Assembly (NCBI RefSeq): GCF_900070205.1
Contig: NZ_FAOO01000002.1
Location: 1-64,000, forward strand
Length of the DNA stretch: 64,000 nt
DNA from: Candidatus Thermokryptus mobilis
GTDB taxonomy: Bacteria > Bacteroidota > Ignavibacteria > Kryptoniales > Kryptoniaceae
Reading direction: 5' to 3'
The notes under the pieces: model-generated
Databases searched by the model: none
Told to the model about the DNA's origin: nothing
What the model saw: the letters and a program-made list of their open reading frames with translations, nothing else
Part shown: piece after piece, positions 38,374-45,812 of the stretch
Layout of the letters: every line of letters starts with the position of its first letter
Numbering within the stretch: position 1 is the first letter of the stretch
Position numbers and translations under genes: made by a program

Positions 38374-39558
38374 ATGAAATTTAAAAAGTTTGTCGCCCCA
38401 ACCCTGAAAGAGGCAACTGAAATGATGAAAAAAGAGCTTGGGGGAAACGCAATCATCATTGGAACAAGAAGGATAAGGCAACCGGGTTTATTTGGATTTT
38501 TCAAGCCAGAGCTGATAGAAATCGTCGGAGCTGTAGAGGAAGAAATACCGCAGGAAAGGTCAAAAGTTAATAGCACGGTTGAGCTTTTGAAAAAGATGAC
38601 GCAGGAAATTGAAACGCGGAGAAAATTAACGGGTGATGAGATTCCTAACTTTGACAGAACGATTGAAAGGTATGACTATAGCCAAATAAAAAACGAACTT
38701 GAGGAGGTAAAACAAGCTTTAAATGAAATAACGGAGCATTTGAAATATAAAGGAGCAAATCAATTCCCGTCAAACTTGAGAAAAGTTTTTATGAATTTGA
38801 TTGAAAAGGAAGTTGAAGAGGAACTTGCAAATAAAATTGTTAGGTCTGTGCTTTTAAAATTAAGCGGGGATGAATTAAGAGATGAGAAAAGGGTTGAAGG
38901 TGAAGTTATAAATATCATCTCAGAGATTGTTAAATTTTCAAAGCCGATAAAACCATTGAGGAAAAAAACTTTTACACTTGCCTTTGTAGGTCCAACAGGG
39001 GTTGGTAAGACGACAACTGTAGCAAAGCTCGCGGCAATTTACAAGATATTTGAAAATGCAAGGGTTGCGTTGATCTCTGCCGATACTTATAGAATTGCTG
39101 GAATTGAACAGCTTCAGACATTTGCGAACATAGCTGGAATCCCAATGGATGTTGCATATACACCCGAGGATATGGCGCGACTTGTGAGAAAACATCAAGA
39201 TAAGGATTTAATTTTGATCGACACGGTTGGGAGAAATCAAAAACAGGGGGAGCAAATTTCAGAGCTTGCAAAATTTATAAAAGGTGCGGACCCAGACGAG
39301 GTTCATCTTGTTTTGAGCGCAACATCAAGTTATAAAAATATGATTGATGTTTACAACAGGTTCAAAGTGCTTTTGCCGAACAGATTGATATTTTCAAAGG
39401 TTGACGAAGCAGTTTCACTTGGTCACATACTTAACATCGCTTATCGGACGAAGATCCCGCTTTCCTATATAACGACTGGTCAAACAGTCCCAGATGATAT
39501 AGCTGTTGCTGAGCCAAAAGTTATAGCAAACTTAATTTACAAGGAAGTTCTCATATGA
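38374..39558 (+). CDS. flhF: Flagellar SRP-family GTPase FlhF
   Basis: The 394-residue protein starts MKFKKFVAPTLKEATEMMKKELG, the FlhF B-domain start. A linker follows, then the NG domain with LAFVGPTGVGKTTTVAKLAA (G1) and DLILIDTVGRNQKQG (G3). FlhF helps set flagellar position and number, working with FlhG. It is the first gene of the flagellar operon. The start overlaps no other gene and lies downstream of the sigma-54-like element. Confidence 0.94.
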   Translation: MKFKKFVAPTLKEATEMMKKELGGNAIIIGTRRIRQPGLFGFFKPELIEIVGAVEEEIPQERSKVNSTVELLKKMTQEIETRRKLTGDEIPNFDRTIERYDYSQIKNELEEVKQALNEITEHLKYKGANQFPSNLRKVFMNLIEKEVEEELANKIVRSVLLKLSGDELRDEKRVEGEVINIISEIVKFSKPIKPLRKKTFTLAFVGPTGVGKTTTVAKLAAIYKIFENARVALISADTYRIAGIEQLQTFANIAGIPMDVAYTPEDMARLVRKHQDKDLILIDTVGRNQKQGEQISELAKFIKGADPDEVHLVLSATSSYKNMIDVYNRFKVLLPNRLIFSKVDEAVSLGHILNIAYRTKIPLSYITTGQTVPDDIAVAEPKVIANLIYKEVLI

Positions 39559-40412
39559 TTGATCAAGCAGAAAGCTTAAGGAAAATAGTTAGCGAGAGAA
39601 TAAAAGAGAAAAGAGCAAAAGCACATGTGATAGCGATAGGAAGTGGCAAGGGTGGATGTGGCAAGACAAATCTCACTTTAAATCTTGGTTTACTTCTCAG
39701 CAAGAACGGGAAAAGAACACTTATATTTGATGCTGATTTAAACCTTGCAAATGTTGACATCCTTTTGGGGATAACGCCGAAGTATAGATTCCTCAACTTT
39801 ATCAACGGCGATGTTGATTTAAAAGATGTGATTGTAAAGGTAAGAGAGAAATTGGAACTTATACCTGCTAACTCAGGCATAGTTGATTTCCCAAAGGTTA
39901 GTGGTGAGAGGATTTTTCAAGTGATTGATGATGTTTTAAACCTTGAAGATAATTTTGATTTCATCTTGATTGATACTCCAGCGGGGATTTCGGAAGAGGT
40001 CGTTAAAGTGCTCGGTTACGCAGATGACTACATACTTGTTGTGACGCCAGAACCGACTTCAATAATAGATGCCTACGCAGTGATTAAAATTGTCTATTAC
40101 CGAACCGGAAAACAAAGCGTAAAACTTGTTGTAAACAATGTCAATAGTCAAACCAACCCAAGTGAAATCGCCGAAAGATTATCAATCGCAGCTGATAAAT
40201 TTCTGGGTGTTAAGGTAAATCACATTGGCTCAATCCCATATGATCCCGCTGTGCCAAAGTCGGTGATGATGCAAAAACCTTTTGTTGAATCATTTCCAAG
40301 GTCTAACGCTTCAATTGCCTTGATGAAAATAGCCGAAAATTTGCTTTCCCTTGATAAAGTAAAAAAACAAAATTCATTCTTCTGGAGGTTGACGCAAACA
40401 TGCGGTCTTTAA
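39555..40412 (+). CDS. flhG: FlhG/FleN MinD-like ATPase
   Basis: The 285-residue protein has the deviant Walker A VIAIGSGKGGCGKTNLTLNL near residue 30, LIFDADLNLANVDILLG, and FDFILIDTPAGISEEV. It lacks a FleQ-type domain. FlhG limits flagellar number and stimulates FlhF's GTPase through an N-terminal segment (MIDQAESLRKIV resembles this). The ATG overlaps the flhF stop by 4 nt. Confidence 0.93.
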   Translation: MIDQAESLRKIVSERIKEKRAKAHVIAIGSGKGGCGKTNLTLNLGLLLSKNGKRTLIFDADLNLANVDILLGITPKYRFLNFINGDVDLKDVIVKVREKLELIPANSGIVDFPKVSGERIFQVIDDVLNLEDNFDFILIDTPAGISEEVVKVLGYADDYILVVTPEPTSIIDAYAVIKIVYYRTGKQSVKLVVNNVNSQTNPSEIAERLSIAADKFLGVKVNHIGSIPYDPAVPKSVMMQKPFVESFPRSNASIALMKIAENLLSLDKVKKQNSFFWRLTQTCGL

Positions 40413-40629: not shown

Positions 40630-41388
40630 ATGTCAGTTGAAGTGAGCCAAACGGAAAAACTTTTCAACCTTTATAAGAGGACACATGACCCAAAGATAAA
40701 AGAAAAGTTGATGCTCTTCTACATTGATTTCGTCCGCGGGATCGTTAGAAAGATGAACCTCGCTTACTCTGGTGCGCTATTAAGCGAGGACGACCTTGTT
40801 GACATTGGGATGATCGGTTTAAGCGACGCAATTGAAAAATTTGACCCAAAGGTTGGAGTTAAGTTTGAGACATACGCATACACAAGGATAAGGGGATGCA
40901 TAATTGATGAGATACGAAAACTTGATAACCTTCCAAGATCAGCCAGAAATAAAATAGGACTACTTGATAGAGCAAGGTCAAGGATTGAAAACGAGATCGG
41001 TGATAAAGTCCAGAGCTGGAAAATCGCTGATGAAGTTGGAATTTCAGCTGAAGAATACGAAAGGATTCTAAAACTTGAGAAGGAGAGCAAGACGATCTCG
41101 TTTAATTTAAATGTCGGGGAAAACATTGAACTTGGTGAACTGATAAAAAGTGAAGATAAAAACCCTGAGGAGACGCTTTTTGAAAACGAGATAAAGCAAG
41201 CGATCGCTGAAGAGTTGAAAAAGTTATCCGAAAGAGAACGGCTCGTTATAGTTCTCTATTATTACGAGGAATTGACATTCAAGGAGATAGCAGGGATTTT
41301 GAAACTAAGTGAATCAAGGGTCTCGCAAATCCACTCCGAGGCGGTGAGCAAAATCCGCAATTCATTGAAAAGCAAATTATCATTTTAA
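40630..41388 (+). CDS. fliA: Flagellar sigma factor 28 (FliA/WhiG family)
   Basis: The 252-residue protein has sigma regions 2, 3 and 4. Region 2 contains DLVDIGMIGLSDAIEKFDP and FETYAYTRIRGCIIDEIRKLDNLPRSAR, a FliA/SigD hallmark. Region 4 contains LSERERLVIVLYYYEELTFKEIAGIL. It directs late flagellar and motility promoters. A GGAGG site sits 9 nt before the ATG. The matching anti-sigma factor FlgM is not seen in this window. Confidence 0.95.
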   Translation: MSVEVSQTEKLFNLYKRTHDPKIKEKLMLFYIDFVRGIVRKMNLAYSGALLSEDDLVDIGMIGLSDAIEKFDPKVGVKFETYAYTRIRGCIIDEIRKLDNLPRSARNKIGLLDRARSRIENEIGDKVQSWKIADEVGISAEEYERILKLEKESKTISFNLNVGENIELGELIKSEDKNPEETLFENEIKQAIAEELKKLSERERLVIVLYYYEELTFKEIAGILKLSESRVSQIHSEAVSKIRNSLKSKLSF

Positions 41389-41390
41389 AA

Positions 41391-42266
41391 ATGCCAGGGA
41401 TAAAGCAAAGGATTCAGAACATACTTCAACTTGTTCCATTTCCAGCGGTTGCGATGGAAGTAGTTCAACTCGTTGACAACCCTAAAACAAGCGCAGCAAA
41501 GCTTGGGGAAGTTATATCAAAGGACCAAGCCCTTGCAGCTAAAGTTTTAAAAGTAGCCAACTCCCCATTTTACGGTTTCCCAAAGCAGATATCAACGATC
41601 AATTTCGCGATAGTTGTTCTCGGTTTTGAGACATTAAAGGAGATAGTTCTTAGCGTTTCACTTGCAAGTTCGCTTGCGAATAAACTTGACAAAGAATTTG
41701 ACCTTGAAAAGTTTTGGAAACATTCACTTTTAACGGGTATAATTGCGAAACATCTTGCTAAGGATTTCGGCTACAGGGTCACTGGTGAAGCTTTTACGGC
41801 TGGCTTACTTCACGATGTTGGACTTCTTGTGATAGCGCAGTATTTCAAAAAGGAATTTCAAAGCATAGTTCAAATTGGGAAGAGGGAGGAGTTTCAGTTT
41901 GAGCAAATTGAGAGAAGATTCCTTGAAAATTCAACTCATTTTGAGATCGGGGCATGGCTTGCTGAAAAATGGAACTTCCCGGATCAACTGGTTGAAGCGA
42001 TATCGTTTCACCACCAACCTCATCTTGCTCCGAGAAACCCGCAACTGCCAGCACTTGTTTTTCTTGCAGAATTAATTTGCCATAAACTCGGAATTGAAAA
42101 CATTGAATATGCAGACCACGATAGAACGTTTACAGAAAATCTGAAAGATGTTTTAAACATCTTAAAACTTGACGAGAGTTTTCTCAACGATGGCTTCATT
42201 GAAACATACAAAGCAAGAATCCAAGCAGACATAGTTAAGAATCAAATCTATCTCAGCCAAACATGA
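41391..42266 (+). CDS. HDOD-domain signalling protein
   Basis: The 291-residue protein is an HDOD domain. LVPFPAVAMEVVQLVDNPKTSAAKLGEVISKDQALAAKV and VANSPFYGFPKQISTINFAI are typical of the family. FTAGLLHDVGLLVIAQYF keeps an HD-like pair, but the family is not known to be catalytic. HDOD proteins act in signalling, motility and stress. Here it lies between fliA and the histidine kinase gene and overlaps the kinase gene by 4 nt, so the two products probably act together. Confidence 0.9.
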   Translation: MPGIKQRIQNILQLVPFPAVAMEVVQLVDNPKTSAAKLGEVISKDQALAAKVLKVANSPFYGFPKQISTINFAIVVLGFETLKEIVLSVSLASSLANKLDKEFDLEKFWKHSLLTGIIAKHLAKDFGYRVTGEAFTAGLLHDVGLLVIAQYFKKEFQSIVQIGKREEFQFEQIERRFLENSTHFEIGAWLAEKWNFPDQLVEAISFHHQPHLAPRNPQLPALVFLAELICHKLGIENIEYADHDRTFTENLKDVLNILKLDESFLNDGFIETYKARIQADIVKNQIYLSQT

Positions 42267-43624: not shown

Positions 43625-44092
43625 ATGGCAAACCCGATTTATATAATGATTTTAATTACGATTTCAATCACGCTTTTATTTCTGCTAGGTTTTAGATTCG
43701 CTTTGAAATTTCTAAACAGGCATGCCGAAGTAAAGGAAGCAGTTAAAGAAAATTTAATTTATGCCGATAAAAGTTTTGAAGAACAATTAAACGAGGAAAT
43801 GTTAACCGAAAGCGTTAAAGATGAAAACCTTAACGAAGAATTTAACGAAAATGAGCTTATAAAACTTGCAAAAAGATATAATATCGGTCAGGGTGAAGTT
43901 GAACTTCTATTGAATTTGAGAGCCAAGGAAGTGGAAAGATTGAAAGGATATGAAAAGATAATTGATGAAATTGAGAAGGGCTCGGAAATGAAAAAAGTCG
44001 CTAAAAAATACAAAGTTGGCTATGGTGAAATTGAACTTCTTATGAATTTAAAAAACTTTGGTCGGAACAATTTAATTAAGAAATGGAAATAA
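43625..44092 (+). CDS. SwrB-like single-helix membrane protein with two repeated helical motifs
   Basis: The 155-residue protein has one N-terminal membrane helix (residues 6-24), a Glu-rich acidic linker, and two copies of a motif. These are AKRYNIGQGEVELLLNL (about 82-98) and AKKYKVGYGEIELLMNL (about 126-142), with 11 of 17 positions identical. The motif resembles the C-terminal segment of DUF6115/SwrB-like proteins of Firmicutes, where swrB follows the flagellar sigma gene and promotes flagellar export. Similar topology and position support the comparison, but homology is not proven. Confidence 0.6.
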   Translation: MANPIYIMILITISITLLFLLGFRFALKFLNRHAEVKEAVKENLIYADKSFEEQLNEEMLTESVKDENLNEEFNENELIKLAKRYNIGQGEVELLLNLRAKEVERLKGYEKIIDEIEKGSEMKKVAKKYKVGYGEIELLMNLKNFGRNNLIKKWK

Positions 44093-44844: not shown

Positions 44845-45036
44845 ATGATTTACTTAACGAGTTACAAAGAGGGAGAGAGGATATTTTGCTGTGTCAAGTT
44901 TCAGAGCGAGGATTTTGAGGTTGAAGGTTACGGCTCAAGTTTTTGGCGGACGCTTTTGTTCTGTTTATTCAAGGGTTTTCTTTTAAAGATCAAATTGAAA
45001 ACAAAAAAATTGATAACGCAATGGAAAGGGCATTAA
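44845..45036 (+). CDS. Possible small protein between flgF and flgG (63 residues)
   Basis: This frame starts 2 nt after the flgF stop and overlaps the start of flgG by 16 nt. It fills a 178-nt gap that otherwise has no gene. The first half looks protein-like (MIYLTSYKEGERIFCCVKF) and the second is basic (KIKLKTKKLITQWKGH). In the second half the other frame, which is in frame with FlgG, also looks coding (LADAFVLFIQGFSFKDQIEN). A one-base change in the T-run at 44940-44944 would join both halves. I am unsure whether this is a real gene. Confidence 0.35.
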   Translation: MIYLTSYKEGERIFCCVKFQSEDFEVEGYGSSFWRTLLFCLFKGFLLKIKLKTKKLITQWKGH

Positions 45037-45812
45037 GGACAGCAGCTTCTGGGATGTTCGCACAACAATTGAACATTGATGTCATAGCTCATAATCTTGC
45101 TAATGTGAACACGACATCGTTTAAAAGGAGCAGAGCCGAGTTTCAAGATTTGATGTATCAAATTTTAAAGGCTCCCGTTTCTGCCAATCAAAACGAGAAC
45201 ACACAAAGCCCCGGGGAAATTCAAATTGGGACAGGCGTACAAGTGGTGGCAACATTGAGGGATTTCAAGCAAGGGGACCTTCAGCCGACGGACAATCCAC
45301 TTGATGTTGCGATAAATGGCGACGGTTTCTTCCAAGTCAGAAAGCCCGACGGGACAATTGCCTACACAAGGGATGGCTCTTTTAAACTCTCACGCGACGG
45401 ACGACTTGTTAACTCCACAGGTTATATTCTTGAGCCAGAAATTATCATACCTGAGACAGCCGTCGCAATAAGCATAAGCAGAGATGGAATAGTTGAAATT
45501 TTAAATTCGGGAGAAACTGAACCTGTTGAGATAGGAAGAATTGAACTCGTCAAGTTTGTAAACCCAGCTGGTTTGAGAAGCATTGGCAATAACCTTTATG
45601 TTGAAACGCAGGCATCGGGTCAACCGATATTCGGAACCCCAGGAAGTGAAGGGTTTGGCGAGTTGATGCAAGGATATCTTGAAACTTCAAATGTTGACAT
45701 CGTTGAGGAAATGGTCAATATGATAATCGCCCAGCGTGCTTACGAAATTAACTCAAAGACGATAAAGACAGTTGAAGAAATGCTTCAAATGGCAAACAAT
45801 TTGAAACGATGA
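45021..45812 (+). CDS. flgG: Flagellar distal rod protein FlgG
   Basis: From the ATG at 45021 the protein has 263 residues. It starts ERALRTAASGMFAQQLNIDVIAHNLANVNTTSFKR, then GEIQIGTGVQV and LDVAINGDGFFQVRKPDGTIAYTRDG. It ends with LETSNVDIVEEMVNMIIAQRAYEINSKTIKT. These match FlgG in order and length (usual 260-265). The upstream in-frame codons (TTG at 44943) would add 26 residues not seen in the family. FlgG forms the distal rod that passes through the P and L rings. Confidence 0.95.
   Translation: MERALRTAASGMFAQQLNIDVIAHNLANVNTTSFKRSRAEFQDLMYQILKAPVSANQNENTQSPGEIQIGTGVQVVATLRDFKQGDLQPTDNPLDVAINGDGFFQVRKPDGTIAYTRDGSFKLSRDGRLVNSTGYILEPEIIIPETAVAISISRDGIVEILNSGETEPVEIGRIELVKFVNPAGLRSIGNNLYVETQASGQPIFGTPGSEGFGELMQGYLETSNVDIVEEMVNMIIAQRAYEINSKTIKTVEEMLQMANNLKR

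Follow-up and report, generated by a model that had tools for sequence, protein, structure and literature searches.

The open reading frame at 43625-44092 (+) of the window, that is the whole 64,000-nucleotide stretch of DNA analysed here, encodes a protein, P0001, which we propose to be a membrane anchor that docks FlhF while the basal body begins to assemble, and to represent a tandem form within a FipA/SwrB-like superfamily. We give this reading a probability of about 0.58. P0001 contains a conserved internal repeat, its second copy shares a G/E/L signature with FipA and SwrB, its sequence is similar to the profiles of both families, and its gene is linked to flhF and co-occurs with it. Beyond this, we infer FlhF binding, the role of each copy and any role in placement. 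In the following, gene X designates the P0001 gene and its same-slot counterparts in other genomes.

A membrane protein with two C-terminal hairpins

P0001 has a single membrane helix near the N-terminus and two copies of one motif, LAKRYNIGQGEVELLLNL (containing E91) and VAKKYKVGYGEIELLMNL (containing E135), which lie 44 residues apart; both features had been described in the initial annotation. The top internal repeat, with residue 75 set against residue 119, scored 76, compared to a mean of 23.8 (sd 5.6) and a maximum of 46 for 200 shuffled sequences, and is far above chance. The pair of hairpins is kept in 7/7 genomes of the genus (Candidatus Kryptonia). Among the seven Kryptonia orthologues, conservation of the majority residue reached 0.86 in hairpin 1 and 0.78 in hairpin 2, with 0.56-0.64 elsewhere, and the P0001 linker between membrane helix and hairpins is acidic and poorly conserved. 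Comparison of P0001 with its nearest orthologue gave a dN/dS of 0.125/1.027, and hairpin 1 alone a dN of 0.066 and a dS of 0.884.

The AlphaFold2 model of P0001 was modest (13 aligned sequences, mean pLDDT 70, pTM 0.32) and predicted helices at residues 4-62, 75-84, 89-117, 122-128 and 133-154. In each repeat, one predicted helix ends seven residues before the conserved glutamate and the next starts two residues before it. Identical boundaries were predicted around E465 of the homologue at locus L077 (helices 452-458 and 463-470), in a model with a mean pLDDT of 64 overall and of about 75-81 around the hairpin, and we count this agreement in favour of FlhF docking. P0001 would consist of a single N-terminal helix followed by cytoplasmic C-terminal hairpins, as in the topology of SwrB.

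When the P0001 model was compared with solved structures, 0 of 113 Foldseek matches had E<=0.001, and many of the 50 weak matches listed were helix-turn-helix or DNA-binding HTH proteins. A phmmer search of PDB sequences gave nothing below E 0.27, a search for relatives with P0001 alone confirmed 0 of 211 pattern matches, and tblastn against plasmids gave no match. Three records filed as plasmids, NZ_AP026896.1 (4.9 Mb), NZ_CP154629.1 (2.6 Mb) and NZ_CP083716.1 (807 kb), look chromosomal, and the 807-kb one carries a fla/che operon, rpsB and tsf.

The gene belongs to a flagellar operon in which all names except flhF were given by sequence reading. The order is flhF-flhG-fliA-HDOD-histidine kinase-P0001 gene, followed by flgF-flgG-flgA-flgH-flgI-flgJ-flgN-flgK-flgL-motA-motB-fliW, with 9 nt between the kinase stop codon and the P0001 gene and 6 nt between the latter and flgF. 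The earlier statement that the gene lies downstream of fliA is true, but the two do not adjoin, the HDOD and histidine-kinase genes standing between them. Within the stretches fetched, the remaining six genomes of the genus have an identical gene order. The host genome is 97.5% complete, and its FlgG is 98% identical to that of Candidatus Thermokryptus, 92% to that of Kryptonium thompsonii and 89% to that of Chrysopegis kryptomonas (closest named), which makes it a Candidatus Kryptonia genome. An unlisted 63-aa ORF at 44845-45036 (+), beginning MIYLTSYKEGERIFCC..., lies between flgF and flgG and overlaps the flgG start; its frame is open and similar in 7/7 Kryptonia genomes. The operon of Chrysopegis kryptomonas contains a partial tandem duplication of flgN-flgK (L029:14558-17281, also in L040).

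Table 1 Position of P0001, its parts and the neighbouring genes in the window.
Feature	Position	Strand	Basis
flhF	38374..39558	+	TIGR03499, 225.3 bits, above cut-off
flhG (MinD/ParA-like)	39555..40412	+	name by sequence reading
fliA (sigma-28-like)	40630..41388	+	name by sequence reading
HDOD-domain protein, conserved between fliA and kinase	41391..42266	+	name by sequence reading
Histidine kinase, directly upstream of the P0001 gene	42263..43615	+	name by sequence reading
P0001, 155 aa, one membrane pass, two C-terminal hairpins	43625..44092	+	ORF, model, repeat analysis
Membrane helix, residues ~5-27 of P0001	43637..43705	+	Kyte-Doolittle windows; helix in model
Hairpin 1, residues 75-101 (E91, L94; E75 at FipA's Gly position)	43847..43927	+	
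Hairpin 2, residues 119-146 (G119, E135, L138 = FipA G/E/L spacing)	43979..44062	+	
flgF-like rod gene, directly downstream of the P0001 gene	44099..44842	+	sequence reading
flgG, survey bait	45021..45812	+	sequence reading

Relation to the FipA and SwrB families

In FipA from V. parahaemolyticus, G110, E126 and L129 are reported as invariant, and FlhF binding was abolished by G110A and L129A, not by E126A (PMC11620751). The residues given in the same paper for P. putida FipA (G104/L123) fit this spacing, and those printed for S. putrefaciens FipA (G106/L118) do not. The G-x15-E-x2-L spacing is common to FipA from Aeromonas caviae, SwrB from B. velezensis and hairpin 2 of P0001. Hairpin 2 of the seven Kryptonia proteins has the G in 7/7, the E in 7/7 and the L in 5/7 (F or V in the others), while hairpin 1 has the E and the L in 7/7 and the G in 1/7, P0001 itself having no G there.

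The two reference proteins were an unannotated A. caviae ORF from the flagellar region, taken as FipA (89.5 bits on DUF2802), and the B. velezensis ORF right after sigD, annotated hypothetical and taken as SwrB (35.0 bits on DUF6115); in the Pfam scan SwrB had no DUF2802 match and FipA no DUF6115 match. The top Pfam match of P0001 was DUF2802, the FipA domain (PF10975; 25.4 bits, 1.6e-5, below the 33.5 cut-off), and DUF6115, the SwrB profile (PF19610), was matched with 20.6 bits (6e-4, below the 27-bit cut-off). The remaining six Kryptonia orthologues include two above the DUF6115 cut-off (30.3 and 31.4 bits) and none above that of DUF2802 (17.9-23.4 bits). Both profiles were matched at E<=1 by 11/11 members of an alignment of seven Kryptonia and four sister-family proteins (A1). 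With hhalign, A1 aligned to A. caviae FipA with E 3.2e-4 (39%), G119/E135/L138 falling on the G/E/L of FipA, and to SwrB with E 1.4e-3 (17%). A second alignment (A5), made from six slot proteins that have a periplasmic part and of which two are titled KSB1, gave E 5.4e-6 (86%) against SwrB, E 0.061 (0.9%) against FipA and E 3e-7 (93%) against A1. The controls FliO (E 0.16) and FliL (E 0.088) aligned only within the membrane helix. When nine FCB hairpins, SwrB excluded, were used for an HMM, SwrB ranked first after P0001 among 1725 control ORFs, though at no better than E 0.063, and FipA was not found among them.

The profile matches, the A1-FipA alignment and the G/E/L spacing, together with the flhF co-occurrence and linkage described below, are counted for FlhF docking. 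Counted against it are the two missed Pfam cut-offs, the hhalign values of A1, low for FipA and lower for SwrB, the FipA missed by the FCB HMM, the A5-FipA result, the mutually unmatched Pfam families, the L138 position variable within the genus, the scarcity of the glycine among the named slot proteins with the motif, and the lack of cut-off matches among the Ignavibacteria-type ones scanned. The likeness to SwrB that had been suggested initially holds in part, for profile similarity, for topology and for the two orthologues above the DUF6115 cut-off; P0001 itself falls below that cut-off and matches DUF2802 better.

In wider searches, DUF6115 matched 11 of 148 phylum genomes, 0 above cut-off; the matches read (12 of 18 loci) proved to be LuxR-type or sigma-type proteins, HTH proteins of other kinds or unrelated ones, and these were dropped as candidates for X. 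DUF2802 matched 6 of 149 class genomes, each time below cut-off. Four of these matches fell on the sister-family gene in its slot, and those in G143 and G147 were unrelated ORFs, the 19.5-kb region around the G147 match giving no flagellar match. Among six Ignavibacteria-type slot proteins (L046, L053, L110, L047, L050, L062), 0/6 pass either cut-off, and position and motif are what suggests their relation to P0001. The glycine is present in 15/62 named slot proteins with the motif, and the G/L pair is not conserved in most Ignavibacteria slot proteins.

The likeness to FipA and SwrB might also be due to chance, with P0001 as a convergent helix-turn-helix protein, that is a flagellar membrane protein peculiar to its lineage and serving a different function, such as that of a membrane-bound DNA-binding regulator. 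The motif covers only about 30 residues, the weak DUF6115 matches in the phylum and many of the weak Foldseek matches were of the helix-turn-helix kind, and most Ignavibacteria slot proteins have no glycine. However, no Foldseek match reached E<=0.001, topology and operon neighbourhood are the same as those of SwrB and FipA, the slot proteins L066, L077 and L108, encoded in that operon block, score above the DUF6115 cut-off, and the second helix, with its hydrophobic LLLNL or LLMNL, does not in our judgement resemble a DNA-recognition helix. We consider such a convergence quite improbable.

Distribution of gene X and its link to flhF

With FlgG as bait, we surveyed 80 named loci, the best 80 of 498, from Kryptonia, Ignavibacteria, KSB1, Latescibacterota, Caldithrix-titled genomes and untitled MAGs. 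The strict motif was found within the last 75 residues of a slot ORF in 62/80 loci, many of them Ignavibacteria, so that the gene does occur in flagellar operons of relatives, as the initial annotation would lead one to expect; in shuffles of these 62 ORFs the motif occurred in a mean of 1.4 and a maximum of 5. Of the remaining 18 loci, L043 and L044 match a looser pattern, and a variant could be recognised by eye in L118. Ns interrupt L045, and some further slots run into a contig end or are occupied by different genes, such as the NtrC-type regulator of L099, L103 and L111. A conserved-looking ORF of ~380-396 aa follows X, before flgF, in eight Ignavibacteria/Melioribacteraceae-type loci (L071, L082, L083, L094, L105, L107, L113, L115); our guess is a hook-length protein.

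Two motifs per ORF were found in 18/133 slot ORFs, from 3 Kryptonia loci and 15 others, and in 0 of 300 shuffles, with a Glu-Glu distance of 39-55 residues (43-46 in 15/18). The tandem form is not specific to Kryptonia, nor is the duplication new to this lineage. In diderms, a SwrB-like name ('FlgW/SwrB', in Campylobacterota) is already in use. Repeat models built from the 15 non-Kryptonia tandem ORFs preferred Kryptonia hairpin 1 as 'first' repeat in 7/7 and hairpin 2 as 'second' in 5/7, P0001 hairpin 2 being one of the two that failed; hairpin 1 of the sister family is degenerate and scores ~0 with both. Since the Kryptonia hairpins sort with these models, the duplication is probably older than Kryptonia, as judged from short data. 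The duplication might be functionally neutral, hairpin 2 doing all the work and hairpin 1 being a decaying copy, as the E75 of P0001, the degenerate sister-family copy and the one motif in many Melioribacteraceae and Ignavibacteriaceae slot proteins could suggest. This appears unlikely to us, as it is hairpin 1 that the Kryptonia proteins conserve better of the two, with the dN and dS given above and with its E and L kept in 7/7.

Six slot proteins (L077 and L079, titled KSB1, and L066, L097, L108 and L118, from untitled bacteria) carry a large periplasmic part on the N-terminal side of their membrane helix, and one hairpin; 3/5 of those scanned pass the DUF6115 cut-off. L077 is laid out as signal helix, beta-sandwich, TPR helices, membrane helix and hairpin. 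The top solved match of its beta-sandwich was the amidase AmiC (E 2e-5), presumably through the AMIN domain of AmiC, and the second solved match, to the TPR helices, was a Campylobacter jejuni flagellar periplasmic scaffold chain (E 1.5e-4). FimV_core had no match in the genome of P0001, but the same model matched only 1/14 controls, 0/14 above cut-off, so that a HubP/FimV-type landmark may well be present there. Between X and flgF, loci L066, L077 and L079 contain small ORFs which by reading are FlhB-C-terminus-like (~95 aa), RsbW-like and STAS-like.

In an order-wide search, gene X was found in 7/7 genomes of the genus and 9/13 of the sister family, and FlhF (E<=1e-40) in the same seven and in 10/13, respectively. 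All 16 genomes with gene X contain FlhF (16/16), and the three sister-family genomes without FlhF are also without gene X; this count is limited to the order, the profile not reaching the rest of the class. In G019, the tenth sister-family genome with FlhF, flhF is ~5 kb from the contig end that it reads towards, too close for X to be seen. Twelve genomes in which the slot search had failed have FlhF in 12/12, and DUF6115 matched 7/12 of them, 3 above cut-off. Four of the five regions read show flhF-flhG-fliA-HDOD and then X (L163, L164, L166, L167), with hairpin residues G, E and L in L164, L166 and L167 and G, E and M in L163, and with a kinase-like match between HDOD and X in L166. The fifth, the G266 match (L165), is without the hairpin pattern and was not counted as X. 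Gene X was not found in three Latescibacterota-titled genomes with FlhF (G262, G263, G269). The conserved neighbours include fliA, so the linkage does not single out FlhF over FliA as partner.

An alternative function is that of a SwrB-like export activator, in which the hairpins would act on the basal body, on its FliG/FliP side, and switch on type III export, FlhF not being needed. The DUF6115 match of P0001 and the two orthologues above its cut-off are in line with this, as are the length (155 aa each) and topology similar to those of B. velezensis SwrB, the position of the P0001 gene directly before the rod genes flgF and flgG, and the SwrB suppressors, which lie in FliG and raise FliP (PMC4526659). 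Yet DUF2802 is the better match, and L163 and L164 have flgF and flgG on another contig, with the gene remaining next to flhF-flhG-fliA-HDOD. SwrB and FipA also have one G/E/L pattern, so both ideas may be one. Export activation through a separate route is rather unlikely in our estimation, and the DUF2802 top match with the flhF-flhG-fliA-HDOD company makes FlhF anchoring the better working model.

A model of FlhF docking and comparison with known systems

In the FlhF-docking model, the N-terminal helix would hold P0001 in the inner membrane and the variable acidic linker would present two cytoplasmic helix-turn-helix hairpins. Hairpin 2, with the full FipA signature, would dock FlhF, and P0001 would keep the FlhF-FliG-FliF nucleus attached to the membrane. 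Hairpin 1 would be a specialised copy, which may add avidity (e.g. for the halves of an FlhF dimer) or bind a second partner. In other bacteria, FlhF is a partner of FliG, to which it binds, and promotes the capture of FliF (PMC11620751, PMC11236974); a membrane hairpin holding FlhF-FliG would fit both these data and the SwrB suppressors. In B. subtilis, basal bodies of the swrB mutant are more mobile and those of the flhF mutant are not (PMC12153297), a difference that would not be expected if FlhF were the sole route of SwrB action.

A wider reading is that SwrB, FipA and the slot proteins of Kryptonia, Ignavibacteria, KSB1 and related MAGs form one family of FlhF-docking anchors. The tandem hairpins, assigned to Kryptonia and part of Ignavibacteria, would grip an FlhF dimer, and the periplasmic AMIN/TPR-like fusions would be one-piece landmarks from cell wall to FlhF. 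We regard this as possible, on balance doubtful. If it were true, the role of SwrB in Bacillus, whose mechanism is inferred from genetics, would run at least partly through FlhF-FliG. The recurrence of the signature in a third and distant group suggests a single ancient component, and the shared motif makes testable whether SwrB binds FlhF via its glycine and leucine and whether one partner serves all. P0001 and the other slot proteins are candidates for placing the flagellum in bacteria of the FCB group. The literature search, largely without subscription papers, covered Kryptonia flagella and Ignavibacteria FlhF and showed no paper on this; it found DUF2802 in two papers and DUF6115 in none, and novelty is provisional given that coverage. 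The FipA paper (PMC11620751) was the one paper of the search in which both SwrB and FipA occur, SwrB outside the main text, and the likeness of the two may already have been raised there.

Among known systems, the HubP/FimV landmarks are resembled by L077 in topology. The periplasmic slot proteins share with P0001 the flhF-fliA operon block and the C-terminal hairpin, and differ from it by the beta-sandwich and TPR part and by having a single hairpin. FlgW is a diderm flagellar protein which its authors equate with SwrB, writing 'FlgW/SwrB' for Campylobacterota, where its function is given as unknown (PMC9321776). FipA (DUF2802) is an FlhF-binding protein of gammaproteobacteria that promotes polar FlhF placement, and it reportedly does not occur in Bacillus or epsilon-proteobacteria (PMC11620751). 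It has like P0001 an N-terminal membrane helix, a cytoplasmic helical C-terminus and G-x15-E-x2-L. Its gene is likewise linked to flhF-flhG-fliA and co-occurs with FlhF, on the P0001 side within the order; in contrast, FipA is described with a single DUF2802 unit, and P0001 has two hairpins and lies below the DUF2802 cut-off. SwrB (DUF6115), from Bacillus, an activator of flagellar export described in 2015 as conserved only in that genus (PMC4526659), is like P0001 in its 155 aa, its single N-terminal helix and a C-terminal hairpin with the same signature, and its gene also comes shortly after the flagellar sigma factor. SwrB has one hairpin and its gene follows sigD immediately, whereas P0001 has two and its gene stands two genes after fliA in the same operon.
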